From Actinomycetota bacterium (lineage in GTDB: Bacteria > Actinomycetota > Thermoleophilia > Solirubrobacterales > 70-9): a stretch of 64,000 bases of DNA. The notes under the pieces are model-generated. The model did no database searches. It was not told the DNA's origin and was given only the letters and a program-made list of their open reading frames with translations. The number at the start of each line of letters is the position of its first letter. Positions within the stretch are counted from its first letter, which is position 1. This document shows positions 10,509 through 39,668 of the stretch, one piece after another. The stretch spans positions 1 through 64,000 of the forward strand of contig JAFDWB010000084.1 in the NCBI GenBank assembly GCA_018268675.1, read 5' to 3'. A program made the translations under genes and the position numbers.

Positions 10509-10533
10509 CGATTTGCTCCTTCTGCTCGGGGGG

Positions 10534-14461: not shown

Positions 14462-14493
14462 CTCTACTCCTCTACTCCTCTTAGGTTCCCGAT

Positions 14494-15171
14494 CTAGATC
14501 GGCCAGGTCTCCTCGCGCCAGGCGCAATCCCAGAACATCCACTCGAGCCGGCAGCCCCGCGCGAAGATCGCGGCGAACCGCTCCCGCTGGGACTCGCTGG
14601 ATTCGGCCCCGACGCGCTCGACGATCGCCAGCACCTGGGCCACCGTCTCGGCGAATCGAGGGTCGCCATAGGTGTCGAGCCAGCGCTGGTAGCTCGGCTC
14701 GGGCGACCCTTTCTGCTTCATCTCCTTGCCCACTTCGGCGTAGATCCAGAAGCAGGCGAGCACCGAGGCGAGGGCGTCCGCGAACGGGCCGCGGGCGGTC
14801 TGGGAGAGGATCGTCTGCACGTAGAGCTCACCGCTCGGGGAGAGCTCTTCGCGGCTCGCCTCAGGATCGGCGCCCAGCCCCGAGAGCAGTTCCCGGTGCA
14901 TTCCCGCCTCGACCGCGATCGCGTTCGAGGCGGAGCCGGTGAAGACCGCGGTGTCGCCGGGGTCCTCGGCGTGCCCCGCCGTATACGACAGGGCGCGCGA
15001 GTAGGCACGGAGGTAGAGCCGGTCCTGCTCGACGAAGTAGACGAACCGCTCCGGCGGCAGCGAGCCATCCGCGATCCCGGCGAGGAAGGGATGGTCGACG
15101 ATCGCCTCGAAGATCGGGGTGATCTCCTCCCACAGCGCCTGGGTGAACGCGGTCCCGGTATCGGTGCTCAT
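14494..15171 (-). CDS. tenA: TenA-family thiaminase II-like protein (copy 2)
   Basis: 225 aa. It keeps all recognisable TenA residues: QDRLYL (pyrimidine-contacting Asp), ACFWIYAEVG (Cys and Tyr) and CRLEWMFWDCAW (Glu). The start codon overlaps the stop of the THI5-like binding protein (ATGA), so import and cleavage are co-translated. This pairing matches the known salvage module in which ThiXYZ imports base-degraded thiamine and TenA releases hydroxymethylpyrimidine. Here the next gene is a deaminase rather than a thiamine-biosynthesis gene. Confidence 0.87.
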   Translation of the reverse strand: MSTDTGTAFTQALWEEITPIFEAIVDHPFLAGIADGSLPPERFVYFVEQDRLYLRAYSRALSYTAGHAEDPGDTAVFTGSASNAIAVEAGMHRELLSGLGADPEASREELSPSGELYVQTILSQTARGPFADALASVLACFWIYAEVGKEMKQKGSPEPSYQRWLDTYGDPRFAETVAQVLAIVERVGAESSESQRERFAAIFARGCRLEWMFWDCAWREETWPI

Positions 15172-16241
15172 GATTCCGGGCACCAGCTCGGACCGAATTC
15201 GGACGTGTACATTTCTTCCGGTTTGAGCGGCTTGGAGATCGGCTTCCCGTTGGACCCGGTGATGATGCCCTGTTTGAACTCCCATTCCGGGAACTTCGTC
15301 CACCGTTCCTTGGTCTGGCAGCCGAAACGACCTTCTTCGTCGGGGTAGAATTCCTTCGCCAGCTTTTCGGCCGAGGCGTAGACGAGGTGTTCGTTCGGGA
15401 ACCCTCCGGGGTTTTCTTCGATCAGGATTTTCGCCGCTTCTTTCGGGTTCTTGATCGCGAATTCGTAGCCTTCGGCGGTCGCCTGGACGAACTTTTTCGC
15501 CAGTTCGGGGTTGCTCTTGAGCCAACCGTCGTTGCAGGCCATGACCACGTTGTAGGTGTCCGGCACCCCGTAGTTCGAGACCGGAAATTCACGCAGTTTG
15601 AGCCCGCGTTCCTTGGCTTCGATCAGCTCCCAGGTGCGGAACCCGAGCGAGGTGTCGACCTGACCGTTGTAGACCGCTTCGTAGGCCCCGGTGTTGAGGA
15701 CGACGTTCTGGACTTCGCCGCTGCCGCCGTCGTACTTGATCATCTGATCGATGATCGGCACTTCGTAGGGGAGCCCGAAACCGCCGTACGTCTTGCCGGA
15801 AAGATCCTTGGGCGACTTGAAGGGCGAGCTCGCCTTCACGATCAGCGAGTTGACCTGGTGCTGGACGATCGCCATCACCGACTTCTCTTCGCTGCCCGCG
15901 GCGATCGCGAGCGGGATGTTTTCCTGGAAGCTGATGCCGCAGTCGGCCTTGCCTGCGCCGACCAGGGTGTCGGCCGATCCTTCGCTGTAGGGGAGGATCT
16001 GGAGGCTGACCCCGGCCTTTTCGTAGTACCCCTTGTTCATCGCCACGTAGAAACCGGTGTGGTTCGTGTTCGGCGTCCAGTCGAGCTGCAGGCTCACCGC
16101 CTGCGGTTCACCGCCACCGCCGGCACCGGTTTCGGTGGTGCTGCTCGAGGAGCTCGATCCCCCTCCACACGCGGCGACGAGCAACGACATGACACCGACC
16201 ACACAGGCGAGTGCGGTCCAGCGCAGCTTTGGCGATCTCAT
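15168..16241 (-). CDS. ThiY-like (NMT1/THI5 domain) substrate-binding lipoprotein
   Basis: 357 aa. A signal peptide ends in the lipobox LLVAACGGG (Cys at about 25), followed by a Ser/Gly-rich tether. The mature domain starts with LQLDWTPNTNHTGFYVA, the hallmark of THI5/ThiY proteins that bind thiamine-type pyrimidines such as formylaminopyrimidine. It is the first gene of a six-gene operon (binding protein, TenA, deaminase, HDAC-like, ALDH, ADH). The matching permease and ATPase are at 7019-8691. A good GGAGG lies before the ATG. I see no TPP riboswitch in the 97-base leader. Glu is mostly GAA, unlike its neighbours. Confidence 0.9.
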   Translation of the reverse strand: MRSPKLRWTALACVVGVMSLLVAACGGGSSSSSSTTETGAGGGGEPQAVSLQLDWTPNTNHTGFYVAMNKGYYEKAGVSLQILPYSEGSADTLVGAGKADCGISFQENIPLAIAAGSEEKSVMAIVQHQVNSLIVKASSPFKSPKDLSGKTYGGFGLPYEVPIIDQMIKYDGGSGEVQNVVLNTGAYEAVYNGQVDTSLGFRTWELIEAKERGLKLREFPVSNYGVPDTYNVVMACNDGWLKSNPELAKKFVQATAEGYEFAIKNPKEAAKILIEENPGGFPNEHLVYASAEKLAKEFYPDEEGRFGCQTKERWTKFPEWEFKQGIITGSNGKPISKPLKPEEMYTSEFGPSWCPES

Positions 16242-16337
16242 TTCAGTCCCTCCGTGTTGTTTTCGCTCGTCCCACTGATTCCCGCTCCCCCGCCGACAGC
16301 TCTATCCCCAGGGCCGGTTTTCCCTTGCACGGCCAGA

Positions 16338-16372: not shown

Positions 16373-17794
<1,422 letters not shown>

Positions 17795-17812
17795 CGGCCC
17801 CCCGCGGCGCGG

Positions 17813-18499
17813 CTAGCCCTTGGACCCGTCGGCGAGGCCGGCGAGGGCCTCGAGCGCATCGTGTTCGATGCTGAGCATGTGGGCGCGGGTGGCCGCCCGG
17901 GCCGCCTCGGGGTCGCCGTCGACGATCGCCTTGAGGATCTTGGCGTGCTCGTCCACCGAGCGACGGCGTCGGCCCGCGGTGCGCTGGGCGACGCTGGCGG
18001 TGAGCGCCAGGATGTTGCGGAGGCGCTGGATGAGATCCATCGCGAAGCGGTTCCCGGTGTGCTCGAGCAGGGTGTCCGAGAAGGCCTCGACCGCCTCCGT
18101 GTAGGAGTGGACATCGTCGGCTTTGAGGGCGGCGCGGGCATCGCGGATCGTCTTCCGCAGGGCGGCCCGCAGCTCGCGGTCGGGCTCGAGCGCGGCCGCC
18201 GCCGCGATCTCGCCCTCGAGCCAGCCGCGCAGCTCACAGGCATGGGTGATGTCCTCGCTCGCCGGGGTTGCGACGCGGGTGACGTGGTACGGAACCTGGT
18301 CGACCAGGCCCTCGCGCCCGAGCGCGATGAGCGCCTCCCGCACCGGCGTCTTGCTGATCCCGAATTCGGACGAGAGCTGGGCCTCGACCAGAGGGTCGCC
18401 GGGGCGGAGATCCCCTTCCAGGATCCGCTCACGAATCGCCTCCTGAACCGCCGCGTCGAGCGCGTGGGCCTTTAGCTGCACCCCCGTCATCGCCTCCAT
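17813..18499 (-). CDS. GntR-family regulator, FCD subfamily (copy 2)
   Basis: 228 aa from ATG 18499; ATG 18490 is an alternative. The DNA-binding half matches copy 1 at nearly every position from ALDAAV through YHVTRVATP, including the recognition-helix region. The FCD sensor half differs in many places (for example [25 protein letters not shown]). The two proteins therefore probably read the same operators but respond to different ligands. The 5' end overlaps the 3' end of the B12-binding subunit gene by 62-71 bp, an unusually long overlap. Confidence 0.9.
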
Positions 18500-18908
18500 C
18501 GTAGGCGTCGGGCCGGGCGACAGCCGCCGCGACCAGCGCCGCCGCCTCCCTGGTGCTGGTGCCGGGGGTGAAGATCTCCCGCACGCCCTGGGCGCGGAGG
18601 GCGGCGTGGTCCTCGTCGGGGATGACGCCGCCGACCACGACCGCCACCTCGCTCGCGTCCTCCGCCGCGAGCAGCTCCAGCACCTCGGCGGTCAGGGTCA
18701 TATGGGCGCCGGAGAGGATCGAGAGGCCGATCGCGTCGGCGTCCTCCTGCAGCGCCGTCTCGACGATCTGCGCCGGCCGCTGGTGAAGCCCGGTGTAGAT
18801 CACCTCCATGCCGGCGTCACGGAGGGCGCGGGCGATCACCTTGGCGCCGCGGTCGTGGCCGTCGAGGCCGGGCTTGGCGACGACGACGCGGATCTTCCGC
18901 TCAGCCAT
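18429..18908 (-). CDS. B12-binding small subunit of acyl-CoA mutase
   Basis: 159 aa. It shows the cobalamin-binding signature [14 protein letters not shown] (His that ligates cobalt), then [10 protein letters not shown] and a GG motif ([11 protein letters not shown]). It pairs with the separate large subunit at 20479-22176, as in isobutyryl-CoA-type and archaeal-type mutases. The last 25 residues are Gly/Arg-rich and lie over the start of the GntR gene, so the true C-terminus may have been extended. ATG 18908 overlaps the CoA-transferase stop. Confidence 0.88.
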
Positions 18909-20061
18909 CGTCGTCCTCCTCCCCGAACCCGACCGCGCCGTGCTGGTCGAGCGCGGGCGCGGGCCGCTCGGAGGTGGCGCCGGCGGCGGAGAAGGTAATC
19001 GGGAGGCCGACCTCGGCGACGGCGCCGGCGACCGGGTGGCTGCCCTCGCGGAGGAGCCCGAGCGCCTCGACCTGCGCGGAGCCGAGCACCTGGTCGAGCG
19101 TCTGCACCGGCGCGAAGGCGACCCCCTCACGCCGCAGCCGCTCCTCCCAGTGGGCGGTCGGCCGCGTCCGCAGCACCGCCTCGATCGCCTCCCTCAGGGC
19201 TTCTGCGTTCTCGACCCGCAGCGAGTTCTCGGCGAAGCGCTCGTCGTCGCGCAGGCCGGGGGCGTCGATCGCGCGGCAGAAGCGCTCCCAGCCGTCGCTC
19301 CCGCCGGTGCCGACGACGACGAGGTGGCCGTCGGCGGTCGCGTAGGCCTCGTACGGGGCGAAGAACGGGCTGCGGGTCCCCAGCGGCCGCGGCTCCTCGC
19401 CACCGGCCGCGCGGGCGGCGATGTGCATCGAGAGCCAGGCCAGGCTGGTCTCCAGCAACGAGGCCTGGATCCACTGCCCGCGCCCGGTCCGCCGGCGCTG
19501 CCAGAGGGCTGCCTGGATCCCGATCACGCCGTAGAGGGCGCTGCCGAAGTCGAGCGCCGCGACCGGGATCTTCGCCGGCGGCCCGCCCGGGTGGCCGGTC
19601 ATCGACATCAGCCCCGAGAGCGCCTGGATGGTCAGGTCGTAGGCGCCTTCGGCGGCCAGCGGGCCGGTCTGGCCGAAGCCGGAGATCGAGCAATAGACGA
19701 GCTGTGGCGCCCGCCGGGAGAGCCGCTCGTAGTCGAGCCCGTAGCGGGCCAGCGTCCCCGGCTTCGTGTTCTCGACCAGGACGTCGGCTTCGGCGGCGAG
19801 GTCGATCAGGGCGGCGCGGTCGTCCTCGTCGCGGAGGTCGAGGCCGATGCTGCGCTTGCCGCGGTTGAGGGCGAGGAAGCTGACGCTCTCGCCCGCGAGG
19901 AAGAGGGGGCCCTGGCGTCGGTAGACGTCGCCGCCCTCGGGCCGCTCGACCTTGAGCACGGTGGCGCCGAGGTCGGCGAGGACCTGGGTGCAGTAGGGCC
20001 CGGCCACGTACTGGGTCAGGTCGAGGACCTTGACGTCGGCGAGCGGGTAGGCCTCAGCCAT
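18901..20061 (-). CDS. CaiB/BaiF family III CoA-transferase
   Basis: 386 aa. It begins with the class III motif [22 protein letters not shown] and keeps the catalytic Asp ([16 protein letters not shown]). These enzymes move CoA between carboxylic acids. It is located between the epimerase-like VOC protein and the B12 subunit with overlapping ends, so it may activate the acid that the mutase uses or recover CoA from its product. ATG 20061 is chosen; the upstream open frame covers the VOC gene in another frame. Confidence 0.9.
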
Positions 20062-20479
20062 CGCTCCCCACCCCCGGCTCCGCCTCGACGATCTCGACCA
20101 GGACGCCGCCGGTCGCCTCGGGGTGGACGAAGAAGCACTTGCGGCCGTCCGAGGAGCGTTCGATCCCGTCGCCGACCAGCCGCGCCCCGTCGGTGGCGAG
20201 CCGCTCGCGCAGCGCCTCGATCGGCGCCCCGACGCGGAGCGCGACGTGGTGCAGGCCCGGGCCGCGGCGGGCGAGGAAGCCGCCGACCGGCGATCCCTCG
20301 CGCGCCTCCCAGACCAGCTCGAGGCCGTTGCCGGGGCCGAAGCGACCGACGGCGACGCCGCTCGGCATCTCCTCCCCGGCCACCTCGGGGACACCGAGCA
20401 GGCGGCTGAGGGCGGTGCCGGGACCGGGGGCGGCGATCCCGACGTGGTCGACTTGCAGGGCCTTGAGCGGGTCGGCCAT
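20054..20479 (-). CDS. VOC-family methylmalonyl-CoA epimerase-like protein
   Basis: 141 aa, one glyoxalase-fold pair. Metal ligands fit the epimerase pattern: His in VDHVGIAAP, His in GLHHVALRV and Glu in VLVEIVEAEP. Its position between the mutase large subunit and the CoA-transferase, with overlapping ATG/TGA, supports epimerisation of a 2-methylmalonyl-type CoA ester. The sequence is more diverged than housekeeping epimerases, so a related substrate is possible. Confidence 0.78.
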   Translation of the reverse strand: MADPLKALQVDHVGIAAPGPGTALSRLLGVPEVAGEEMPSGVAVGRFGPGNGLELVWEAREGSPVGGFLARRGPGLHHVALRVGAPIEALRERLATDGARLVGDGIERSSDGRKCFFVHPEATGGVLVEIVEAEPGVGSDG

Positions 20480-22176
20480 CAGATCACCGTCGAGCCCGTG
20501 TGGCGGCCGAAGACACGGCCCAACGCGTCGCTGATCTCGCCGGTGGTCGCGTAGGCGCGGACCGCGGCGACGATCGCCGGCATCGTGTTCTCGCTCCCCC
20601 GCGCCGCCGCCTCGACCCCGGCCAGCGCCGCCGCCACCGCCGCCTCGTCGCGCTCGGCGCGGGTGGTGCGCAGGCGGGCGAGCTGGCGCTCGAGCACGTC
20701 GGCACCGACCTGGAAGGTCTCGACCGGCTCCTCGCCGCCCTCCTCGGCGAACGCGTTGACGCCGACGATCACCCGCTCGCCGGCCTCGATCTGGCGCTGC
20801 TGCTCGTAGGCGGACTCGGCGATCGCCTGCTCCAGCGAGCCGTCCTCGATCCCGGCGACGATGCCGCCGTTCTCCTCGATCTTCGCGATCAGGGTGTCGA
20901 TCCGGCGCTCGAGCTCGTCGGTCAGCGCCTCGACGTAGTAGGAGCCGCCGAGCGGGTCGGCGGTGCGGGCGACGCCGCTCTCGTGGGCGAGGATCTGCTG
21001 CGTCCGCAGCGCCAGCAGCACCGACTCCTCGCTCGGCAGCCCGAGCGCCTCGTCCCAGGACATCGTGTGCACGGCCTGGGCGCCGCTGAGGACGACCGTC
21101 AGCGCCTGCAGGGCGATCCGCATGATGTTGTTGTGCGGCTCGGCCGCGGTCAGCGAGGTGCCGTCGCCGCCCGAGTAGAGGCGGAGGCGACAGGAGCGGG
21201 GGTCGGTGCTGCCGAAGCGCTCCTCGATCAGCCGCGCCCAGATCCGCCGCGCCGCCCGGTGCTTGGCGATCTCCTCGAAGATGTCGCGCATGGTCGAGTT
21301 GTTGAAGGAGATCTGCGGCGCGAACTCGTCGACCCCGATGCCGCGGTCGACCACCGACTGCACGTAGGCGAGCCCGTTGGAGATCGCGATCGCGATCTCC
21401 TGGACGGCGTCGGAGCCGGCCTGGCGGACGTGGTAGCCGCAGACGCTGATCGGGTTGAATTTCGGCAGCGTCCGCGCGCAATACTCGATCACGTCGGTGG
21501 CCAGCCGCATCGAGGGCCGCGGCGGATAGATGTAGGTCTTGCGGGCGAGGTACTCCTTGAGGATGTCGTTCTGGACGGTGCCTCGCAGCTGCGCCGGGTC
21601 GACCCCCTGCCGCTCGCCCACCACCTGGTACATCGCCAGCAGGATCGGGGCGGTGGCGTTGATCGTGAACGAGGTCGAGATCCGCTCCAGCGGGATCCCC
21701 TCGAAGATCGTCTCCATGTCGGCCAGCGAGGCGACCGCGACGCCGACCTTGCCGACCTCCGCCCGGGCCGGCTCGGCGTCGGAGTCGAGGCCCATCTGGG
21801 TCGGCAGGTCGAGGGCGACGCTGAGCCCGGTCTGGCCGCGCTCGAGCAGGTAGCGGAAGCGCTCGTTGGTGTCTTCCGCCGTCCCCCAGCCGGAGTAGAG
21901 CCGGACCGTCCACGGGCGCCCCCGGTACATCGAGGGGTAGATCCCGCGCGTGAAAGGCGGCTCGCCGGGAAAGCCGAGCCGCTCCAGGTACTCGTCCGCC
22001 GCGGCGCCAAGCGTCCCCCTGGCATCTGCGGCCGTCGGACCGTAGACGGCCTCGACCGGGAGCCCGGAGTCGGTCTCGGCCGGCGCGAGATCGGCGACCG
22101 CGTTCCGCCAGCGCTCATAGGCCGCCGCCAGCTCGGCCTCCGCGCCCACGAGCTCGGCTTCCGCCCCTTCCCTCAT
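20479..22176 (-). CDS. B12-dependent acyl-CoA mutase large subunit, divergent active site
   Basis: 565 aa, methylmalonyl-CoA mutase family, archaeal/Icm-like split form. Residues that hold the acyl carboxylate in methylmalonyl-CoA mutase appear conserved (RGRPWTVRLY with Arg and Tyr; LARKTYIYPP with Arg), as does the His in GYHVRQAG. Two usual segments are changed: RQYAGF is RLYSGW, and the HTQTAG/HSQTSG stretch is LYSGGDGTSLT. A carboxylated CoA ester other than methylmalonyl-CoA is possible. Start ATG 22176 is chosen because an earlier in-frame ATG at 22194 lies inside the operator. There is no Shine-Dalgarno sequence, so the mRNA may be leaderless. Confidence 0.85.
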   Translation of the reverse strand: MREGAEAELVGAEAELAAAYERWRNAVADLAPAETDSGLPVEAVYGPTAADARGTLGAAADEYLERLGFPGEPPFTRGIYPSMYRGRPWTVRLYSGWGTAEDTNERFRYLLERGQTGLSVALDLPTQMGLDSDAEPARAEVGKVGVAVASLADMETIFEGIPLERISTSFTINATAPILLAMYQVVGERQGVDPAQLRGTVQNDILKEYLARKTYIYPPRPSMRLATDVIEYCARTLPKFNPISVCGYHVRQAGSDAVQEIAIAISNGLAYVQSVVDRGIGVDEFAPQISFNNSTMRDIFEEIAKHRAARRIWARLIEERFGSTDPRSCRLRLYSGGDGTSLTAAEPHNNIMRIALQALTVVLSGAQAVHTMSWDEALGLPSEESVLLALRTQQILAHESGVARTADPLGGSYYVEALTDELERRIDTLIAKIEENGGIVAGIEDGSLEQAIAESAYEQQRQIEAGERVIVGVNAFAEEGGEEPVETFQVGADVLERQLARLRTTRAERDEAAVAAALAGVEAAARGSENTMPAIVAAVRAYATTGEISDALGRVFGRHTGSTVI

Positions 22177-22182
22177 GGAATT

Positions 22183-22199
22183 ATCGTATCTCATATCTT
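22183..22199. promoter_or_regulatory. GntR operator, site D
   Basis: GTATCTCATATC (22186-22197) is directly upstream of the mutase start. Read on the minus strand, GATATGAGATAC is identical to site F at 38115-38126. A -10-like GATAAT follows, ending about six bases before the ATG, which fits leaderless transcription with the repressor covering the -10 region. Confidence 0.72.
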
Positions 22200-22708: not shown

Positions 22709-23692
22709 CTAACGCCGGATCGAGACCTCGGCGAAGTGCTCGATCGTGCGCAGGCGGGTCTCGGGGTCGCCGAGCGGAAAGACGGTGAGGGCGTCGAGGT
22801 GCTGGGTCTCCAGCCACTCGACCTTCTCGCGGACGTCGGCCGGGGTGCCGGCGAAGGCGACCTTGGTGACGAAGTCGTCGGAGATCAGCTTGGCGGCGTC
22901 GCCGGCGTGCTGGAACTCGCCGCCCTGGTAGATCTCGACCACCTTGTCGATCAGCTCCTGGTCCATCCCGGCGAGGCGGGCGTGGGCGGGGGCGGTCTGC
23001 GGGAACCAGGCGACGATCGGGCGGGCGACGTCGATCGCGTACTGGCGGTCCTCGTCGATCGCCCCGTACAGGAAGGCGGTGCGGTCGAAGCTGGGGCGGG
23101 TGCTGTCGGCCCGGCCCTCGTCGAGGCGCTGGTTGGCGAACTCGATCGCCTCCGGGAAGAGGCCCGCGAGGAGGATGACGCCGTCGGCGACGCGCCCGGT
23201 CGTGGTCAGCGTCTTCGGGCCGCTGGCGGCGATGTAGACGGGGAGGTCGCCGGCGGGGGAGAGCAGCTTCGCGCCCTCGAAGCGGCTGGAGCCGAACTCC
23301 CCGCTGATCTCCTCCCCGGCCCAGAGCAGGCGCAGGGCGTCGATCGTCTCGGTCAGGTTCTTCAGCTTCGCCATCTTCATCTCGAACTCGAGCAGCGGCC
23401 GGTCGCCGACGGCGATCCCGCAGTTGACCCGGCCGGGGGCGAGCTGGGAGAGCGAGCGGAAGGCGTTGGCGGTGATCCCGGCGTGGCGGGTCAGCGGGTT
23501 GGTCACCGCCGAGCCGACGACGAGCCGCTCGGTCGCGATCAGGGCCGTGGTCATGTAGACGTAGACGTCGCCCGCGTGCAGCGAGGAGTCGGTGATCCAG
23601 AGGTTGTCGTAGCCGAGCTCCTCGACGTGCCTGGCGAGCTCGCCGAACTCGACCGGGGGGATCACGCCTTGCAGGGTCACGCCGTAGCGCAT
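22709..23692 (-). CDS. LLM-class flavin-dependent oxidoreductase
   Basis: 327 aa luciferase-like TIM-barrel enzyme. It shows NLWITDSSLHAGDVYVYMT, GSAVTNPLTRHAGITANAFRSLSQLAPGR (flavin/F420-binding pattern, split here by normal spacing) and GIAVGDRPLLEFEM. Members are FMN-dependent monooxygenases such as RutA (pyrimidine ring opening) or F420-dependent reductases related to Mer. The sequence alone does not decide the cofactor. It is the last gene of the M20-M29-M20-LLM operon, with AGGAGA before the ATG. Ring oxidation or opening would suit the context. Confidence 0.85.
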   Translation of the reverse strand: MRYGVTLQGVIPPVEFGELARHVEELGYDNLWITDSSLHAGDVYVYMTTALIATERLVVGSAVTNPLTRHAGITANAFRSLSQLAPGRVNCGIAVGDRPLLEFEMKMAKLKNLTETIDALRLLWAGEEISGEFGSSRFEGAKLLSPAGDLPVYIAASGPKTLTTTGRVADGVILLAGLFPEAIEFANQRLDEGRADSTRPSFDRTAFLYGAIDEDRQYAIDVARPIVAWFPQTAPAHARLAGMDQELIDKVVEIYQGGEFQHAGDAAKLISDDFVTKVAFAGTPADVREKVEWLETQHLDALTVFPLGDPETRLRTIEHFAEVSIRR

Positions 23693-23705: not shown

Positions 23706-24785
23706 TCAGCCGCGCCGCGCGGCGGCGGCGGTCGATTTCGCGGGCTGCCCGAGCAGGCGGACGAGCAGGGCTCGCAGTTGGGCGGCGCCGGTGGGCAGGG
23801 CGTCGAGGTCGATCCGCTCGCCGAGCGAGTGCATCCCGGAGCCACGCGAGACGCCGATGCAGACGGCGGGGATGCCGAGCGCGCAGGCGGCGTTGGCGTC
23901 GGTCGAGGCGGCGGCCAGGGTCGGCTCGAGGCCGAGCTCCGCGCGGACCGCGGCGACCGCGGCGAACAGCTCGGAATCGCGCGCCAGCGAGCCGCCGGGG
24001 CGGCGGCCGAGCGGCTCGACCTCGACCGCGGCACCCTCGCCGACCGCGAGCCGCCCGAGCGCGGCGGCGAACTCGTCGAGCGCCTCCTGGTCGATCGAGC
24101 GCCGCTCGACCACCAGCTCGGCGCGGTCGGCGATCGCGTTGACCGAGCGGCCGCCGGCGATCGTGCCGACGTTGACCGGCGCCTCGGCGCTCCCCAGCGC
24201 GAGCAGCGAGTCGGCGGCGGCGAGCAGCTCGTGGATCGCGCTCGGCGCCCCCCGGTCCGACCAGGAGTGCCCGCCGGGGGCGGTGACGACGACGCGGGCA
24301 CGGACGCTGCCGACGGCGTCGACGACGGCCGCCTCGAGCATGTGGCCCTCGAGCGCGACGAACGCGTCGGGGCGCAGCTCCTCGCAGGCGGCGCTCGCCC
24401 CCCGCAGATTGCCGAGCCCCTCCTCGCCGACGGTGAAGGCGACGGCGCCGGGGCCGGGCAGGCCCTCCTCCAGCAGCCCCCCTACGACCGCGATCGCGAC
24501 CGCGACGGCGGCGGCGTTGTCGCCGACCCCGGGGCCGACCAGGAAGGACCCCTCGCGCTCGAAGTCGAGCCGGGTGTCGCGCGGGAAGACGGTGTCGACG
24601 TGGGCGGCGAGCAGGACCCGCGGCCGGCCCTCCCCCCACTCCCAGATCAGGTTGCCGACCGGGTCGCGGCGGCGGCGCCCCGGGAGCTCGCGGAGCCGCC
24701 GCTCGAGCCACTCCAGCCGCCCCTCCTCGTCGAAGGTCGGCGCCGGGATCGAGGCCAGCTCCACGAGGTCGCCGGCGAGGCTCAC
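23706..24785 (-). CDS. M20-family zinc amidohydrolase/peptidase
   Basis: 359 aa with the full M20 set: AHVDTVFP, GPGVGDNAAA, the catalytic Glu pair in TVGEEGLGNLRG, a dimerisation-domain His (GGHSWSDRGAPSA) and the last metal His in GSGMHSLGERI. M20 enzymes remove acyl, formyl or carbamoyl groups; YlmB, the formylaminopyrimidine deformylase of thiamine salvage, belongs to this family. GTG 24785 overlaps the stop of the M29/NicX-like gene (GTGA). The substrate is not readable, but a deacylation step after ring opening or on a pyrimidine amine is likely. Confidence 0.87.
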   Translation of the reverse strand: MSLAGDLVELASIPAPTFDEEGRLEWLERRLRELPGRRRRDPVGNLIWEWGEGRPRVLLAAHVDTVFPRDTRLDFEREGSFLVGPGVGDNAAAVAVAIAVVGGLLEEGLPGPGAVAFTVGEEGLGNLRGASAACEELRPDAFVALEGHMLEAAVVDAVGSVRARVVVTAPGGHSWSDRGAPSAIHELLAAADSLLALGSAEAPVNVGTIAGGRSVNAIADRAELVVERRSIDQEALDEFAAALGRLAVGEGAAVEVEPLGRRPGGSLARDSELFAAVAAVRAELGLEPTLAAASTDANAACALGIPAVCIGVSRGSGMHSLGERIDLDALPTGAAQLRALLVRLLGQPAKSTAAAARRG

Positions 24786-25762
24786 GCCTCTGCCCAGGCG
24801 GGGTCGACGGGCTCCCCGTCGAGGCGCAGCTCGGCCGCCAGCATCACGCAGTCGATGTGCGAGCGGGCGGCCACCGAGCCGCCGTAGGGGACGTTGTTGC
24901 CGAGGGCGACGTGGGCGCCGCCGACGATCCCCTCGAGCTCCAGTGCCGAGCCGCCCGGCCGCGAGAACGGGTTGAGCCCGATCGAGACCTCGGCCAGGTT
25001 GGTCATCCGCTCGTCGGCCGCCGCCTCGATCGCGTCGACCAGGCGGAAGGCCTCCGGGCCGGAGGCGTCGACCAGCTCGCCACCGCGGAAGCGCAGGGTC
25101 ACGGCCGCCCCGAGCTGGTCGCCGCTGAGGAAGAGCAGCGAGCCGTCGACCACGACCGTGCCCTCGGCGCTGCCCTCCACCGGCGCCGACCCGACCTCGA
25201 TGTCGGGCGGCGCGCCGTAGCCGCCGGGGCGGTCGACGATCCCCCACAGCGGCCGCCCGGCGCGGCCCTCGAAGCTGCCGCGCAGGTCGGTCCCCGCGGC
25301 GCTCACCAGGTGGAACTCGGAGGCGGCGTCGAACCGCTCGCCGAGCCGCCGGGCGTGCTCGCCGAGGGCGGCGAAGTCGGCCTCGAAGGGGCCGCCGGGG
25401 CGCAGCGTCCTCCACGAGAGGCCCGGCACCGTGATGTACCTGGCGCCGCGCTCGCAGGCGTCGCGCCGGGCCTGGCTGGAGCCGGCGAAGATCGAGGTCA
25501 GCTCGAAGATGACGTCGACCCCGGGGTCCGACATCGCCCCCCGGACCGGCGCCGGCGGCTCGTCGCCGGGCAGCTCGACCGGCTCCGAGGAGACGACGGC
25601 GACCTCCGCCCCAAGGGTGCGCAGGACGACCGCCATCGCCTCGACCACGCTCTGGTCGGCGCGGCTGTCGGTGATCAGCAGGCACTGCTCCCGCGGCTGG
25701 ACCCCGGCGCACGCCGTGGCCAGCCGGCGCAGGCCCTCGACCCCCTCCAGCCGCGTCCGCAC
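24782..25762 (-). CDS. M29 aminopeptidase / 2,5-dihydroxypyridine dioxygenase (NicX)-like protein
   Basis: 326 aa. The fold family is shared by M29 aminopeptidases and the iron dioxygenase NicX, which opens dihydroxypyridine rings. Visible metal-site candidates are Glu in NLAEVSIGLN, His in GGAHVALGNN and the HxD pair in AARSHIDCVM near the C-terminus. NicX uses two His and one Asp, M29 peptidases use Glu residues, and this protein shows parts of both. It starts with GTG two bases after the upstream M20 stop. Given the surrounding heterocycle-type enzymes, ring cleavage or amide hydrolysis are both reasonable. Confidence 0.65.
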   Translation of the reverse strand: MRTRLEGVEGLRRLATACAGVQPREQCLLITDSRADQSVVEAMAVVLRTLGAEVAVVSSEPVELPGDEPPAPVRGAMSDPGVDVIFELTSIFAGSSQARRDACERGARYITVPGLSWRTLRPGGPFEADFAALGEHARRLGERFDAASEFHLVSAAGTDLRGSFEGRAGRPLWGIVDRPGGYGAPPDIEVGSAPVEGSAEGTVVVDGSLLFLSGDQLGAAVTLRFRGGELVDASGPEAFRLVDAIEAAADERMTNLAEVSIGLNPFSRPGGSALELEGIVGGAHVALGNNVPYGGSVAARSHIDCVMLAAELRLDGEPVDPAWAEA

Positions 25763-25764
25763 CG

Positions 25765-26955
25765 TCAGTCCTCCCGGTTGGAGAGCAGGACCGTCATCAC
25801 CGTGTTTACCTGCGCCGCCTCCTTGATGTCGGCGACGTCGAGCCACTCGTTCGGGGTGTAGACCGGGTCGTGGCCGGGCCCGAAGATGACGGTCGGGATC
25901 TGCTTGCCGAAGCTCGCCGTGTCGGCGAGCCAGGAACCGGCCGCGTAGCGCGGCTCGCGCCCGGCGACCTGCTGGAAGGCGGTGTCCAGCGCCTCGACCA
26001 GCGGGTGGTCGCGCTCGATCAGGTAGGAGTCTTTGCGGTCGGCGAGCACCATCTCGTAACGACCGTCGGGGCGCTTCGCGGCGGCCCGGTCGATCGCCGC
26101 CTGAAGGTACTCGCGAACCTGCTCGGCGTCGATCCCCGGGTGCGGGCGGGAGTCGATCCGCATCACCGTCTCGTCCGGGATCATCGACGGGCCTCCCGGC
26201 GGGAGGCCGCCGTAGATGCGGCCGACCGCGGTGTAGAGCTCGGGGCCGACGAGGTCGGTGATCCAGTCCGCCACCTCCGGTTCCCAACGCAGCGCCTCGA
26301 CCTCCTCGATCACCGGCACCGCGAGCGCGATCGAGTTGACCGCGTCGTGGCGGCGGCAGGTATGGGCCGCTTTGCCGTAGCAGGTGACGTCCCAGTAGAG
26401 GCGGCCCCGGTGGCCGAGGTAGATGTCGTTGTCGGTCAGCTCGGCGAGCAGGCAGTAGTCGCCCTGGTGCTCGTCGAAGAACTTGATCGCGCCGGTCTGG
26501 TCGCCCATGTGGTCGACCACGCCGCTGACGATCACCTTGCCCCGCCACTGGTCGCGGCAGCGCGAGAGCGCGTCGCCGGCGGCGACGACGCCGGCGATCC
26601 CGGCCTTCATGTCCATCACCGCGTGGCCGTAGAGGCGTTCGCCGTCGAGGCGGCCGGAGTAAGGGTCCTCGTCCCAGCCGACGCAGACCGGCTTGGTGTC
26701 GATGTGTCCGGTGAGGACGATGGTCGGGCCGGGGCGGCCGCTGTCGACGACGCCGACCACGTTCTTGCGGCCGGGCAGCGCCTCCTGCTGGTAGACCTCG
26801 TCGTAGCCCATCCCCCGCATGCGCTCGGTGAGCGCGTCGGAGATCTCGGCCTCTTCCCCGCAAACGCTCGGGATCCGGACGATCTCCTGCGTCAGGTCGA
26901 CCACATCATCGAGATCGACTGCCGAGAGCACGGCGGTTTGTGATGGTGCAGACAT
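25765..26955 (-). CDS. M20-family amidohydrolase with altered catalytic motif
   Basis: 396 aa. M20 landmarks are TGHIDTKPV, GHAVMDMKAG and the final metal His in GPGHDPVYTPNEW. The usual Glu-Glu of the catalytic/metal motif (DEEGG-like) reads VVDHMGDQTGAIKF, so both Glu are replaced. It is the first gene of the operon that ends with the LLM oxidoreductase, expressed from the divergent promoter at site E. ATG 26955 has AAGGAAGGG upstream. It may use a different metal arrangement or a substrate unlike classical peptides. A formylaminopyrimidine-type amide is one guess. Confidence 0.78.
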   Translation of the reverse strand: MSAPSQTAVLSAVDLDDVVDLTQEIVRIPSVCGEEAEISDALTERMRGMGYDEVYQQEALPGRKNVVGVVDSGRPGPTIVLTGHIDTKPVCVGWDEDPYSGRLDGERLYGHAVMDMKAGIAGVVAAGDALSRCRDQWRGKVIVSGVVDHMGDQTGAIKFFDEHQGDYCLLAELTDNDIYLGHRGRLYWDVTCYGKAAHTCRRHDAVNSIALAVPVIEEVEALRWEPEVADWITDLVGPELYTAVGRIYGGLPPGGPSMIPDETVMRIDSRPHPGIDAEQVREYLQAAIDRAAAKRPDGRYEMVLADRKDSYLIERDHPLVEALDTAFQQVAGREPRYAAGSWLADTASFGKQIPTVIFGPGHDPVYTPNEWLDVADIKEAAQVNTVMTVLLSNRED

Positions 26956-29581: not shown

Positions 29582-30076
29582 CTAGTCCCGCAGCGCTTCG
29601 GCGATCGCGTCGACGATTCCCTGGTAGCCGGTGCAGCGGCAGATGTTGCCGGCGATCGCGGTGCGGATCTCCGCTTCGTCGGGCGGCTCGGCGGCGCCGT
29701 CGCGTTCGCGCGACTGCGCCAGCTCGAGCGCGCTCATCAGCATCCCCGGGGTGCAGAAGCCGCACTGGAGGCCGTGGTTGCGGCGGAACGCCTCCTGCAG
29801 CGGGTGCAGCTCGCCGTCGGGGCCGGCCAACGACTCGACCGTGTGGACCTCGCGGCCGGCGGCCTGGACCGCGTAGAGCAGGCAGGAGCGGACGCTGCTG
29901 CCGTCGAGGTGAACGGTGCAGGCGCCGCAGAAGCCGTCCTCGCAGCCGACGTGCGTGCCGGTCAGCCGCAACTCCTCGCGCAGGAAGTCGGCCAGCGTCA
30001 TCCGCGGCTCGACCTCGCCGCGCCGGGTCTCGCCGTTGACGGTGAGCTCGATCGCGGTCCGTCCCGGCTCGCTCAT
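29582..30076 (-). CDS. molybdenum hydroxylase small subunit, [2Fe-2S]
   Basis: 164 aa. It has two iron-sulfur domains: plant-ferredoxin type GCEDGFCGACTVHLDG...SCL, and the alpha-helical cluster QCGFCTPGMLMSA...NICRCTGYQGI. This is the electron-transfer subunit of xanthine dehydrogenase/CoxS-type hydroxylases. ATG 30076 is chosen because GAGGTGG lies just upstream; a GTG at 30085 is possible. It is the last gene of the operon large - RidA relic - FAD - small. Confidence 0.92.
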   Translation of the reverse strand: MSEPGRTAIELTVNGETRRGEVEPRMTLADFLREELRLTGTHVGCEDGFCGACTVHLDGSSVRSCLLYAVQAAGREVHTVESLAGPDGELHPLQEAFRRNHGLQCGFCTPGMLMSALELAQSRERDGAAEPPDEAEIRTAIAGNICRCTGYQGIVDAIAEALRD

Positions 30077-30086
30077 CGAGACCACC

Positions 30087-30962
30087 TCACGAGCGTCCCT
30101 CGGCCCGGGCGGCGGCCCGCAGCAACGCCCGCCGCACGAGCACGGCGAGCACGCGGCGACGCTCCGCCGCCGAGCCCTGGTAGTCGTCGACGGGATCCGC
30201 GGCGGCGGCGACCGCGGATCCGACCGCGGCCGCGCCCTCCTCGTCGACCGCGGCGCCGAGCAACGCCTCGGCCTCGCGGCCGCAGTCGAGCGGGACCGGG
30301 GCGGCGTTGGCGCAGGCCAGCCGCACCCGCTCGCAGCGGCCGCCGGAGTCGAGGCCGACGACCGCCGCCACCCCGGCCACCGGCAGGTCGCCGCCGCGCC
30401 GGGCCAGCTCGAGCCAGGCCGAGCCGGTGCGCGGCGCCGGCGCCGGCAACCGCAGCTCGAGCGCCAGCTCGGAGCGCGCCAGCGCCGTCTCTCCCGGTCC
30501 GGCGAAGAACCTGGCGAGCGGGATCTGGCGCTCGCCGTCGGGGCCGGCGGCGACGATCGTCCCGCCCAGCGCGAGCGCGGCGCTCGGCAGCTCGGCCGAA
30601 GGGTCGGCGTTGCAGAGGCTGCCGACGACGGTGCCGCGGTTGCGGATCGCCGGGTGGGCGACCTCGGCGATCGCCTCCACCAGCAACGGCCAGCGGGCGG
30701 CGACGGCGGCGTCGCCCTCGACCTGGCGCTGGCGCACCGTGGCCCCGATCCGCAGCCCCTCGGCGTCCGCCTCGAGGCGATCGAGGCCGACGATCCGGTT
30801 GAGGTCGACGAGGTGCTCGGGCCGCTCGATCCGCCTGTGCATCAGCGGCACCAGGCTCTGGCCCCCGGCCAGCACCCGCGCCCGCTCGCCGTGGGCGGCG
30901 AGCAACGCCGCGGCCTCCTCGACCGCCGTCGGCGCGTGGTAGGTGAAGGGTGCCGATTTCAC
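30087..30962 (-). CDS. molybdenum hydroxylase FAD-binding subunit
   Basis: 291 aa, CoxM/xanthine-dehydrogenase FAD subunit. FAD-binding motifs are ARVLAGGQSLVPLMHRR and IRNRGTVVGSLCNADPSAELP. It passes electrons from the iron-sulfur subunit to oxygen, NAD or quinone. GTG 30962 overlaps the stop of the RidA remnant (GTGA), so coupling persists across the decayed gene. Confidence 0.9.
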   Translation of the reverse strand: MKSAPFTYHAPTAVEEAAALLAAHGERARVLAGGQSLVPLMHRRIERPEHLVDLNRIVGLDRLEADAEGLRIGATVRQRQVEGDAAVAARWPLLVEAIAEVAHPAIRNRGTVVGSLCNADPSAELPSAALALGGTIVAAGPDGERQIPLARFFAGPGETALARSELALELRLPAPAPRTGSAWLELARRGGDLPVAGVAAVVGLDSGGRCERVRLACANAAPVPLDCGREAEALLGAAVDEEGAAAVGSAVAAAADPVDDYQGSAAERRRVLAVLVRRALLRAAARAEGRS

Positions 30963-31147
30963 TCCGGTACCGCCGCCGGCGCCGTCGCGTGGGCGCGGTC
31001 CGTGACGAAGGCGGTCAGCTTCAGCACCGAGCCGAAGCCGGTGCCGGCGGCGTGCAGGACCCGGCCGCCGCCGATCGCCCCGTGGCTGTAGCCGCCGAAC
31101 GGCGGGGCAATGCCCTCGACCTCGACGATCTCCCTCCCTGTGGGCAT
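30959..31147 (-). pseudogene. RidA-family remnant with internal deletion
   Basis: 62 aa. Residues 1-35 (GIAPPFGGYSHGAIGGGRVLHAAG) match the N-terminus of RidA/YjgF proteins, and residues 36-58 (GSVLKLTAFVTDRAHA) match a segment found about 35 residues later in intact RidA. The middle and the C-terminal part that carries the conserved Arg are missing. RidA enzymes hydrolyse reactive enamines, and RutC of the pyrimidine pathway is a relative. The frame is still open and the start and stop remain coupled to the flanking genes. Confidence 0.7.
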
Positions 31148-31150
31148 CTC

Positions 31151-33508
31151 CTAGCTCCCCTCCCCGGCCGCCGCGGCGACGATCCGCCCGGTGTCGATCG
31201 GAAGCGACTCGATCTCGACCCCGAGGTGGGCGACGGCGTCGGCGACCGCGGCGGCGACCGCCGCCGGCGCCGCGATCGCCCCCGACTCCCCCACCCCCTT
31301 CATCCCGTTCACGGTGAAGGGCGACGGCGAGCACTCGTGGTGGAGCTCGATCGCCGGCACATCGGTCGCCTTCGGCAGCTTGTAGCGGCGCAGGTCGCCG
31401 CTGAGCAGGGCCCCGTCCTCGCCGTAGCGGACCTGCTCGAGCAGGGCGCCGCCGACACCCTGGACCAGCGCCCCACGGACCTGGCCGTCGACCAGGGCCG
31501 GGTTGACGACGGTGCCGCAGTCCTCGACCGAGAGCAGCCGCCGCAGCGTGACCGCGCCGGTCTCGACGTCGACCTCCACCATCGCGACGACGCAGCCGTT
31601 GGCGTAGCTGGCGGGCGGGTCGTGGAAGCGGCTGACGCTGAGCGAGGGGTCCGGCATCCGCGCCCGCAGCGCCGGGTCGTAGAAGGCGGCCTCGGCGACC
31701 TCGCGCAGGGTCGCCTCGCGGTCGGGGTCACCGGCGACGGCGACCCGGCCGGCTTCGATCCGGACGTCCTCCGGCTCCGCCCCGAGCAGGTAGGCGGCGA
31801 TCCGCTCCAGCTTCGCCCGCAGCTCCTCGGCGGCCAGCGCGAGGGCGCCGCCGACGACCACCGCGGTGCGGCTGGCGCGGGTGCCGGCGGTGCTGATCGG
31901 GGTGCCGGCGGTGTCGCCGGAGACGACCCGGACGCGGTCCAGCTCGACCCCGAGCCCGTCGGCGACGATCTGGGCCAGCATCGTCTCGTGGCCCTGCCCC
32001 TGGGACGGGGTGCCGACCGCGGCGGTGACCGCCCCCGAGGGGTCGATCTCGATCCGCACCGAGTCGTGGGAGGCGAACGACCAACGCGACTGCAGGGCGC
32101 CGTCGCTGCCCCATCCGGTCGGCTCGACGTAGGGGCTGACCCCGACCCCGACCGCGGGCTCCCCGACGGCCGGCGCGCCCCGGTCCCGATGCAGCTCCTC
32201 GTAGCCGATCTCGGCCAGGGCGCGGTCGAGCGAGGCGACGTAGCTGCCGCTGTCGTAGAGCATCCCGGTGCACGATTCGTACGGGAAGGCGTCGACCATG
32301 TTGCGCCGCCGCAGCGCCGCCGGGTCGACGCCGAGATGGCGCGCCGCCTTCTCGATCAGCAGCTCCCGGGCGGTGTGGCCGGCGGTCCAGCCGACGCCGC
32401 GGTAGGGCGCCACCGGCGACTTGTTGGTGACCGCGGCGAGGATCTCGCAGCTGTAGTCGCGGACCGCGTAGACGCCGGGCATCAGCCCGGCCGAGAGATA
32501 GGGCTCGATCAGGGCGCTGGTGCTGTTGTGGGAGTAGGCGCCGGCGTCGCCGAGGATGCGGGCGCGGAGGCCGAGGAAGGTACCGTCGGCGGCCAGCGCC
32601 AGCTCGGTCTCGATCAGCTGCTCCTTCGCGTGCGGGGCGGCGAGCAGGTTCTCGAGCCGGTCCTCGATCCAGCGCACCGGCCGCCCGACCGCGCGGGCGG
32701 CGAGGGCGATCGCCACCTCCTCGGCGTGGGCCGGGATCTTCTGCCCGAAGGCGCCGCCGACGTCGGGGGCGATGACGCGGATGTGGGACTCGGGCAGTCC
32801 GACCGTCTGCGAGCGCCGCCGCCGCAGCTGGTGCGGCCCCTGGGTCGAGCACCAGAGGGTCAGCTCGCCGCTGCCGGGGTCGTGCTCGGCGACGCAGCCG
32901 CGCGCCTCCATCGGCACCGCCGCGTAGCGGTTGCCGTGGTAGCGGGCGCTGACGACGTGGTCGGCGGCGGCAAAGGCGCCCTCGACGTCGCCGGCGACGA
33001 TCTCGCCGCGATAGAGGAGGTTGCCGCCCTCGAACAGGTCGGGGCCGGCGCCGGCCGCCGCGGCCTCGGCGTCGAGCACCGGCGCCAGCGGCTCGTACTC
33101 GACCCGGACCAGCTCGGCGCCGTCCTCCGCCCGGGCCCGGCTGGAGGCGAGGACGACCGCGACCGGCTCGCCCTGGAAGCGGACCCGCTCGCTCGCCAGC
33201 GCCGGCTGCGGGGTCTTGCGCAGGCCCTCGATGCGGACGCTGTCGAGCAGCGGCCGGTGCGGGAAGTCGGCGGCGGCGAGGACCGCGACCACCCCCTCGA
33301 GGGCGAGGGCGGCGCCGCCGTCGACGGCGCCGAGGCGGGCGTGGGCGTGCGGCGAGCGGACGAAGCAGGCGTGCAGCATCCCGACCCGCTCGATGTCGGC
33401 GATGTAGTGGCCCTGGCCGCGCAGCAGCCGGGCGGCGTCGAGGCGGGCCACCGGGGCGCCGACGAGCGGCTTCGTCTGAAGTCCTGAATGATCGCTCAGG
33501 ACTTCCAC
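31151..33508 (-). CDS. molybdenum hydroxylase large subunit (xanthine dehydrogenase/CoxL family)
   Basis: 785 aa. It shows GGAFGQKIPAHAEE, APYRGVGWTAGH and the catalytic Glu in GMKGVGESGAIAAP, all typical of the molybdopterin-cytosine-dinucleotide hydroxylases. The CO-dehydrogenase form I motif with Cys (AYRCSFR) is absent, so it is a general ring hydroxylase. Such enzymes hydroxylate carbons next to ring nitrogen in pyridines, pyrimidines or purines. The start is assigned to GTG 33508, but an inverted repeat at 33479-33504 overlaps the first codons, so a later start is possible. Confidence 0.9.
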   Translation of the reverse strand: MEVLSDHSGLQTKPLVGAPVARLDAARLLRGQGHYIADIERVGMLHACFVRSPHAHARLGAVDGGAALALEGVVAVLAAADFPHRPLLDSVRIEGLRKTPQPALASERVRFQGEPVAVVLASSRARAEDGAELVRVEYEPLAPVLDAEAAAAGAGPDLFEGGNLLYRGEIVAGDVEGAFAAADHVVSARYHGNRYAAVPMEARGCVAEHDPGSGELTLWCSTQGPHQLRRRRSQTVGLPESHIRVIAPDVGGAFGQKIPAHAEEVAIALAARAVGRPVRWIEDRLENLLAAPHAKEQLIETELALAADGTFLGLRARILGDAGAYSHNSTSALIEPYLSAGLMPGVYAVRDYSCEILAAVTNKSPVAPYRGVGWTAGHTARELLIEKAARHLGVDPAALRRRNMVDAFPYESCTGMLYDSGSYVASLDRALAEIGYEELHRDRGAPAVGEPAVGVGVSPYVEPTGWGSDGALQSRWSFASHDSVRIEIDPSGAVTAAVGTPSQGQGHETMLAQIVADGLGVELDRVRVVSGDTAGTPISTAGTRASRTAVVVGGALALAAEELRAKLERIAAYLLGAEPEDVRIEAGRVAVAGDPDREATLREVAEAAFYDPALRARMPDPSLSVSRFHDPPASYANGCVVAMVEVDVETGAVTLRRLLSVEDCGTVVNPALVDGQVRGALVQGVGGALLEQVRYGEDGALLSGDLRRYKLPKATDVPAIELHHECSPSPFTVNGMKGVGESGAIAAPAAVAAAVADAVAHLGVEIESLPIDTGRIVAAAAGEGS
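33479..33504. promoter_or_regulatory. inverted repeat at the hydroxylase / ligase divergent start region
   Basis: AAGTCCTGA and TCAGGACTT form perfect 9-bp arms around 8 bases, at the 5' ends of the divergent large-subunit and acyl-CoA ligase genes. It differs from the GntR motif, so a separate regulator is likely, perhaps the TetR protein at 35902-36555. Confidence 0.55.
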
Positions 33509-38133: not shown

Positions 38134-38985
38134 ATGACGGCGCCTCGGCAAGTGGGACCCCTGATCTCCGCCACGGAGCTGGCCGCCGAGCTCGGTGCCG
38201 AGGGCCTGGTCGTCCTCGACGTCCGCTGGGGACTCGACGACCGCGACGCCGGCCGCCGCGCCTACGCGGCCGGCCACGTCCCCGGCGCCCTCTACGCCCA
38301 CCTCGAGGACGACCTCTCCGACCCCGACGACGAGGTCGCCGGCCAGATGCCGGCGCCGGAGCGGCTGGCGCGGACGCTGGAGCGGCTCGGGATCGGCGAC
38401 GGGACCTTCGTCGTCGCCTACGACGACGACGTCATCTACACCGCGGCGCGGGTGGTCTGGATGCTGGCGGCGATCGGCCACGATCGCGCCGCCCTGCTGG
38501 ACGGCGGCTGGCTGGCCTGGCTGGCCGCCGGCGGCCCGGTCGACTCGGCCCCCGCCATCGTCCCCGACCCGCCCCGCGGCAAACTCACCGTCGCCCCGCG
38601 GCCGCGGCTGCGCCGCGAGCGCGCCGACGTCGAGCAGGCGCTGGCCGCCGGGCTGCCGCTGCTCGACTGCCGCATGGACGAGACCTGGGAGGCCGCCGGC
38701 GAGCACATCCCCGGTGCCCGGCGCCTGCCCGCCCCGAGCCTCACCGCCCCCGGCGGCGGGCTCGAGACCCCGGCGCGTACCCGCGAGCGGCTCGCCGAGC
38801 TCGGCCTCGGCCCCGAGGACGAGATCGTCCTCTACTGCGGCGGCGGCATCTCCGCCGCCCGCGCCTGGGTCGCCCTGCGCGCCGCCGGCTACGACGACGC
38901 CGCGGTCTACGACGGCTCCTGGTCGGAGTGGTCGGCGCACCCGGAGCTGCCGCGCGAGCCCCACGGCGGCGGGGCGGGCTCGTGA
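38134..38985 (+). CDS. two-domain rhodanese (sulfurtransferase)
   Basis: 283 aa tandem rhodanese. The first domain lacks Cys at the active loop (AYDDDVIYTAAR). The second has the active-site LYCGGGISAARA with catalytic Cys. It moves sulfane sulfur from thiosulfate or mercaptopyruvate to an acceptor. It is expressed with tenA copy 3 (GTGA overlap) and divergently with the GMC oxidase from site F, so it may handle sulfur from the same substrate. Confidence 0.9.
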   Translation: MTAPRQVGPLISATELAAELGAEGLVVLDVRWGLDDRDAGRRAYAAGHVPGALYAHLEDDLSDPDDEVAGQMPAPERLARTLERLGIGDGTFVVAYDDDVIYTAARVVWMLAAIGHDRAALLDGGWLAWLAAGGPVDSAPAIVPDPPRGKLTVAPRPRLRRERADVEQALAAGLPLLDCRMDETWEAAGEHIPGARRLPAPSLTAPGGGLETPARTRERLAELGLGPEDEIVLYCGGGISAARAWVALRAAGYDDAAVYDGSWSEWSAHPELPREPHGGGAGS

Positions 38986-39668
38986 CCGAGGCGGCGCCGG
39001 AGCGCTTCAGCGACTACCTGCGCGCGGCCGGCGACGAGCTCTGGACCGCCCAGCTCAACCACCCGTTCATCGTCGGGATCGCCGACGGCAGCCTCAGCGA
39101 GGACCGCTTCCGCACCTGGCTGCGCCAGGATTACACCTACCTGCTCCAGTACGTGCGGGTGGCCTCGATCGGCGTCACCCGCTCCCCCGACGAAGCGACG
39201 ATGGCGCGCTTCGCCGAGACCGCCCACCGGGTGCTCGGGATGGAGCTCAACCTGCACCGCGGCTATGCGGCCGAATTCGGCGTCACCACCGAGGAGCTCG
39301 AGCGGGAGGAGATGGCGCCCGCCACCCGCGCCTACGTCGACCACCTGCTGCGGACCGGGCTGCTGGGCGACCTCGCCGAGCTGCCGGCCGCCCTCCTTCC
39401 CTGCATCTGGGGCTACTTCTGGATCGGCCAGGAGATCGCCAAACGGCCGCCCTCGCCGGAGCCGCGCTACGCGCGCTGGGTCGAGCTCTACTCCTCCGAG
39501 CGCTTCCTCGACGTGGTCGACTGGTGCCGCGAGCTGACCGACCGCCTCGCCGACGAAGGCGGGCCGCGCGCCCGCGAGGCGGCCGAGCGCGCCTTCCTCA
39601 CCAGCAGCCGCTGCGAGCTGGCCTGCTGGGACCAGGCCTGGCACGGCCTCGGCTCCAACCACTCCTGA
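38982..39668 (+). CDS. tenA: TenA-family thiaminase II-like protein (copy 3)
   Basis: 228 aa from a GTG that overlaps the rhodanese stop. TenA residues are QDYTYL (Asp), ALLPCIWGYFWIG (Cys and Tyr) and SRCELACWDQAW (Glu; the Phe before Trp found in the other copies is Cys). It is the third TenA copy in 33 kb. The rhodanese-TenA pairing hints that this copy acts on a sulfur-containing substrate such as thiamine itself. Confidence 0.86.
   Translation: MTEAAPERFSDYLRAAGDELWTAQLNHPFIVGIADGSLSEDRFRTWLRQDYTYLLQYVRVASIGVTRSPDEATMARFAETAHRVLGMELNLHRGYAAEFGVTTEELEREEMAPATRAYVDHLLRTGLLGDLAELPAALLPCIWGYFWIGQEIAKRPPSPEPRYARWVELYSSERFLDVVDWCRELTDRLADEGGPRAREAAERAFLTSSRCELACWDQAWHGLGSNHS

Follow-up and report, generated by a model that had tools for sequence, protein, structure and literature searches.

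What does an M20-fold protein do when the D-E-E motif of its active site reads D-H-M? The question is raised by a gene, here called M20x, in a 64,000-nucleotide stretch of Actinomycetota DNA (the window; contig JAFDWB010000084.1), which an earlier note had described as encoding an M20 amidohydrolase without either canonical glutamate. We argue that M20x is probably an enzyme turned to a new use rather than a broken one, since the family-wide invariance of the altered site and the gene cluster around it favor re-purposing over simple loss of function.

An intact M20 gene with an altered active site

The M20x reading frame is intact: translation of 25765-26955 on the minus strand begins with ATG and meets no internal stop, and the product scores above the curated Pfam cut-offs for both Peptidase_M20 (PF01546; 66.6 bits, 3.8e-18) and M20_dimer (PF07687; 51 bits, 1.6e-13), while its score of 151.7 against the ArgE/DapE subfamily model of NCBIfam (TIGR01910) falls below the cut-off of 217.6. 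The altered motif is G-V-V-D-H-M-G-D, the codons GAC CAC ATG at 26506-26514 bearing out the VVDHMGD of the earlier note. When the profile of 40 M20x family members is aligned with that of 13 other M20 proteins (374 columns, E = 2.3e-64), DHM falls on the D-E-E column without a gap, and a second change appears in register: Tyr366 occupies the column of the C-terminal metal histidine, where M20x reads GPGHDP-V-Y-T-P-N-E (GPGHDPVYTPNE) versus GPGGEG-A-H-x-x-E-E in M20 relatives. The general base glutamate, the second glutamate, and the C-terminal histidine are thus replaced by His149, Met150, and Tyr366.

As judged from these alignments, M20x has lost the general base, and one metal site has lost both of the ligands that belong to it alone; H198 and the other site (H84, D115, and E172) are intact. 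We assign residues to metal sites after carboxypeptidase G2 and DapE, and His198 is the dimerization-domain histidine that reaches into the partner active site in M20 enzymes. The family and profile-profile alignments both uphold the earlier claim that His and Met had taken the places of the general base and a metal ligand, and the neighboring M20 gene (M20b) does have the normal TVGEEG; the further statement that M20x keeps the remaining M20 metal residues is right for H84, D115, and E172, but not for the C-terminal histidine, which is Tyr366 throughout the family (68/68 rows). Nor is the glutamate pair supplied from a nearby shifted position: no conserved Glu stands beside the motif, the profile-profile alignment has no gap there, and position 152, although D in 56 of 67 rows, is otherwise Q, E, K, N, or A.

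Spread and conservation of the M20x family

We scanned 84,980 species genomes with two seeds, PPGGPSMI and WL[AG]DTASF, which are stretches away from the changed residues, and obtained 69 loci. Besides the window protein, the family alignment holds 68 of these loci, L091 being too short to include; 5 rows are fragments. The contigs of L006 and L007 recur as L023 and L024, and L006 and L007 are excluded from the counts. DHM stands in 67 of the 67 rows with letters there, and the kept residues recur in every row that covers them (H84, D86, and D115 in 65/65; E172 and H198 in 67/67). In the 64 full-length rows 81 of the 396 positions are invariant, where invariant means invariant within the yield of the seed scan, from which cousins lacking the seeds (for example, a form still having DEE) would escape. 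At 95% identity 53 rows are left, among which pairwise identity has a median of 66% and a minimum of 41%. Substitutions that are invariant even though the least similar members are only 41% identical are far beyond chance or sequencing error, and the recurrence of the same residues in 67/67 and 68/68 rows, in many genera and two major phyla, leads us to reject a sequencing error, frameshift, or decaying pseudogene, in favor of which we found nothing, as practically without likelihood.

The family spans many genera of Actinomycetota, Alphaproteobacteria (Defluviicoccus, Rhizobium, and others), and one member of Dormiibacterota; culturable carriers include Nocardioides soli, Pseudonocardia, and Herbiconiux. 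True members occur in 3 of 232 genomes of the same order (the genome of the window itself and two others, 96% and 87% identical), the rest of the matches being other M20 proteins, and a phylum sample of 396 genomes yielded few relatives. Plasmid relatives are about 30% identical or less among the matches listed (30 of 531 records), with motif columns aligned for one of them (L100). In a tree built by a fast method, several branches of which were flagged as long, the 27 M20x members included lie on one side of a branch with SH-aLRT support of 99.

By these measures M20x is a clade, not a lesion, and its site is unlike those of the M20 relatives aligned residue by residue; a search of open-licence papers found no description of the DHM motif. 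Invariant replacements, invariant kept residues, and a single clade together point to purifying selection on a working site, and we give an even chance to the proposal, taken jointly with the whole of our best explanation, that a two-metal peptidase site was rebuilt once in this clade into a one-metal site. We stress that conservation is by itself no proof of catalysis.

The M20x gene cluster

M20x lies in a conserved gene cluster, and the genes of interest in the window are collected in Table 1. Window proteins were compared with the 69 loci (1.17 Mb) by tblastn at E<=1e-15, and the locus counts are lower bounds; the gene clusters of the related loci were read from stop-to-stop frames rather than from gene-finder predictions.

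Table 1. Features of the window, with codons of the M20x active site and counts among M20x family rows or related loci
Feature	Position	Strand	Remarks
M20x, M20-fold protein; DHM for DEE and Tyr for C-terminal metal His	25765-26955	-	396 aa
His84 codon, HxD metal ligand, kept	26704-26706	-	65/65 rows
Asp115 codon, bridging metal ligand, kept	26611-26613	-	65/65 rows
Asp148-His149-Met150 codons, replacing D-E-E	26506-26514	-	67/67 rows
Glu172 codon, metal ligand of kept site	26440-26442	-	67/67 rows
His198 codon, dimerization-domain His	26362-26364	-	67/67 rows
Tyr366 codon, replacing C-terminal metal His	25858-25860	-	68/68 rows
NicX/M29-fold protein, next gene downstream of M20x	24782-25762	-	beside M20x also in same genus
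M20b, second M20 protein, canonical GEE motif (TVGEEG)	23706-24785	-	
LLM-class (luciferase-like, F420-type) oxidoreductase	22709-23692	-	homologue in 57/69 loci
B12-dependent mutase large subunit	20479-22194	-	36/69 loci
Epimerase-like small protein	20054-20479	-	named by eye from sequence; weak homologues
CaiB-family CoA-transferase	18901-20061	-	35/69 loci
B12-binding small subunit	18429-18908	-	from sequence; 33/69 loci
GntR/FCD-type regulator	17813-18499	-	from sequence; homologue L041 has Pfam GntR and FCD; 38/69 loci
Aspartase-like ammonia-lyase	16376-17812	-	700.8 bits, cut-off 510
NMT1/THI5-like binding protein	15171-16301	-	frame between stops
TenA, first of three	14497-15588	-	frame between stops; Pfam match 14515-15132
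ATZ/TRZ-type amidohydrolase, presumed deaminase	13121-14827	-	frame between stops; 41/69 loci
Aldehyde dehydrogenase	10537-12045	-	in frame 10537-13194
Zinc-type alcohol dehydrogenase	9489-10613	-	frame between stops
ABC-transporter permease	7828-8739	-	
TenA, second	6372-6980	-	
TenA, third, adjoining rhodanese	39033-39641	+	
Rhodanese, beside third TenA	38134-38982	+	

Among the 49 loci flanked on both sides by 4 kb or more, the LLM oxidoreductase is detected in 45. The NicX-like protein is found in 41 of the 69 loci, M20b in 27, the ABC permease in 16, the alcohol dehydrogenase in 15, and the NMT1 protein in 12. Many Actinomycetota share the order M20x - (NicX-like) - B12 subunit - mutase - CaiB - M20b - LLM, and other loci have a short form, GntR - M20x - LLM - NicX-like; alphaproteobacterial loci have M20x, often with an adjoining LLM gene, but without the mutase or NicX-like gene. 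The nearest solved relative of the mutase large subunit is 2-hydroxyisobutyryl-CoA mutase (513 bits, versus 455 for methylmalonyl-CoA mutase), and the aspartase-like ammonia-lyase has a counterpart in only one related locus, L024, of the same genus. The predicted structure of the NicX-like protein (pLDDT 93.6) aligns with NicX (7cn3) over 314 residues (Z 32.4, rmsd 3.5), and on this model we regard it as a putative dioxygenase-like protein.

Two other features of the window may be recorded here. Molybdenum hydroxylase genes lie at 29582-33508 (-), the small and medium subunits recognized by eye and the large subunit by Pfam, and large-subunit homologues occur in 7 of the 69 loci. A histone-deacetylase-fold protein is encoded at 12021-13223 (-), with a homologue in one locus of the 69 (L025).

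A possible link to thiamin

Three of the four TenA matches in this genome fall within the window. The first of them stands side by side with the NMT1/THI5-like and ATZ-type genes, on the same strand past the GntR regulator, and beyond these come the aldehyde dehydrogenase and then the alcohol dehydrogenase. With one TenA as query, 24 hits were obtained in 18 of the 69 loci, where the phylum background (125 matches in all, in 63 of 198 genomes) would lead one to expect about 0.3 in 1.17 Mb, assuming an average genome of an estimated 3 Mb or so. Two or three hits fall within a single locus of about 20 kb in L025, L038, L039, L050, and L055, and related loci carry a cytosine/purine/thiamine-type permease.

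TenA was undetected in 51 of the 69 loci and NMT1 in 57, in part because many of the contigs are short. Neither the window nor any of the five loci tested (L025-L028 and L033) gave a match to an Rfam family, the TPP riboswitch included, and a search of open-licence papers turned up no cluster or pathway for breakdown of HMP or the thiamin pyrimidine. A TauE/SafE sulfite exporter is encoded at 5522-6349 (-), near a TenA gene as is the rhodanese, and both proteins may be suited to handling the sulfur of the thiazole half of thiamin.

A proposed function, and its alternatives

Our best explanation, to which we give an even chance, is that M20x would be an active one-metal hydrolase in an undescribed breakdown pathway for the thiamin pyrimidine or a similar aminopyrimidine. 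What the alignments, the structure model, and the locus searches show is the loss of the three residues, its invariance, the predicted M20 fold, and the gene content; the number of metals, the activity, the substrate, and the step we infer, as follows: i) H84, D115, and E172 would hold one divalent metal; ii) H149 and Y366 would assume proton transfer or substrate contact; iii) water would attack a C-N bond, either in a heteroaromatic ring or in an amide or amidine left by ring opening; and iv) M20x would act after or with the LLM oxidoreductase, and with the NicX-like protein, as gene content suggests. The pathway might then run from uptake (NMT1 and ABC proteins) to release of HMP by TenA, deamination by the ATZ-type amidohydrolase, side-chain oxidation by the alcohol and aldehyde dehydrogenases, ring opening by the LLM, NicX-like, and M20x proteins, deacylation by M20b, and feeding of the carbon chain into central metabolism through CaiB, the B12 mutase, and the epimerase. 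Chemical reasoning suggests that the 2-methyl of the thiamin pyrimidine would leave as acetyl or acetamidine after ring opening, and this would supply work for deacylases such as M20b. Against this explanation count the many loci in which TenA or NMT1 was undetected, the alphaproteobacterial loci without the mutase and NicX-like genes, the absence of a TPP riboswitch from the window and the five loci tested, and the fact that methionine is a poor ligand for zinc or manganese.

M20x could instead be a pseudoenzyme with a dead catalytic site, acting as a regulatory or binding subunit of a protein such as M20b, the LLM oxidoreductase, or the NicX-like protein. The general base and both private ligands of one metal site are indeed gone in every member; M20 enzymes work as dimers, and a dead dimer partner is conceivable, M20b being in the same cluster in 27 of the 69 loci. 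But H84, D86, D115, E172, and H198 are invariant, and a binding-only protein would not need them; 5-nitroanthranilate aminohydrolase is active without the full M20 site; and M20b is absent from 30 of the 49 loci flanked by 4 kb or more at either end, which makes M20x unlikely to be an M20b subunit in general. We consider the pseudoenzyme explanation unlikely as a whole. We find it about equally improbable that the same one-metal M20x acts on some other N-heterocycle (a pyridine, a nucleic-acid pyrimidine, or a xenobiotic), TenA and NMT1 being incidental or handling that compound. The NicX fold of the partner and the molybdenum hydroxylase genes nearby resemble pyridine pathways, and we count it against the thiamin reading that they fit pyridine as well; ATZ-type enzymes deaminate many rings, and TenA is undetected in several loci. 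The three TenA genes, the NMT1/THI5-like protein, and the cytosine/purine/thiamine-type permease of related loci nevertheless point to the thiamin pyrimidine.

A further alternative is that the M20x site (H84, D115, and E172, with H149 or Y366 close by) binds iron or manganese for non-hydrolytic chemistry, as NicX does within the M29 fold. Every row has His in place of a Glu and Tyr in place of a His, and the M29-type partner, itself with an iron dioxygenase fold, sets a precedent for recruiting a peptidase fold to cleave a ring; the listed solved M20 relatives with a function in their names are all hydrolases, however, and we think this alternative a long shot.

Returning to an active one-metal hydrolase, we would tentatively extend it, with less confidence than we place in our best explanation, to the proposal that an M20 clade of Actinomycetota and Alphaproteobacteria uses a one-metal His/Tyr site to attack a pyrimidine-derived ring or amidine, as a step in an undescribed and complete bacterial breakdown of thiamin (the pyrimidine, perhaps also the thiazole) for which the M29/NicX fold may also have been recruited to cleave a ring. 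If our best explanation is right, the textbook mechanism is closed to a large M20 subfamily, although automatic annotation puts its members near the ArgE/DapE deacylases; the clade would be a rare natural experiment in the conversion of a two-metal site to a one-metal site; and there would be a concrete set of genes, testable in culturable strains, for breaking down the thiamin pyrimidine in bacteria.

Comparison with known systems

Structure prediction, which the earlier note had also proposed, returned an M20 fold for M20x (AlphaFold2; pLDDT 93.5, pTM 0.90). Counting matches with Z within 1 of each other as tied, the model is matched best, and equally, by DapE (7uoi; Z 42.0, rmsd 3.7, 370 aligned) and by 5-nitroanthranilate aminohydrolase (5k8p; Z 41.1, rmsd 2.4, 382 aligned; and 5k8m; Z 41.0, rmsd 2.3, 368 aligned). 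Of the top rows, those of the aminohydrolase have the smallest rmsd (2.3-2.5 over 368-382). DapE (succinyl-diaminopimelate desuccinylase) and ArgE share with M20x the two-domain M20 fold, the HxD and DMK motifs, the Glu, and the dimer-domain His, but have D-E-E and a C-terminal His where M20x has DHM and Tyr.

To our knowledge, 5-nitroanthranilate aminohydrolase (5k8m/n/o/p) has no published link to thiamin. It resembles M20x in having the M20 fold with an altered site, in being without the C-terminal His, and in a W-x-DT motif in the C-terminal part; it differs in having GEI for DHM and Asn for Asp115, and the two are about 22% identical, so that by these residues M20x is not of the aminohydrolase subtype. 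The aminohydrolase is described as a metal-dependent hydrolase that exchanges an aromatic amino group for a hydroxyl by aromatic substitution (PMC9814641), with a product that passes to a ring-cleaving dioxygenase (PMC10306065). An M20 protein without the textbook site can thus work on an aromatic ring.

The genome of the window encodes another altered M20 protein (L002; C87:243929-245122), with SNMKGA at the bridging Asp, SGEIEK for DEE, and PSATLGE at the expected C-terminal His; it resembles the 5-nitroanthranilate aminohydrolase type and is 27% identical to a relative, L101. The latter, an M20 protein like 5-nitroanthranilate aminohydrolase that is annotated as hypothetical, is on plasmid pPHS1_P of Paraburkholderia graminis (472673-473992), where its neighbors form a Rut-like set of LLM oxidoreductase, cysteine hydrolase, and flavin reductase.

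NicX itself (2,5-dihydroxypyridine 5,6-dioxygenase) shares its fold with the partner protein over nearly the whole length, with the HxD motif aligned, but the two are only 18% identical, and the partner also matches M29 aminopeptidases (Z 20-22.5). As for the cluster, the YlmB/TenA/ThiXYZ system of Bacillus, which reportedly salvages the thiamin pyrimidine and in which YlmB is said to have a normal M20 site, likewise groups an M20-fold protein with TenA and a binding protein of the NMT1 type; the deaminase, LLM oxidoreductase, mutase, and CoA-transferase of the window suggest breakdown rather than salvage of the YlmB type.
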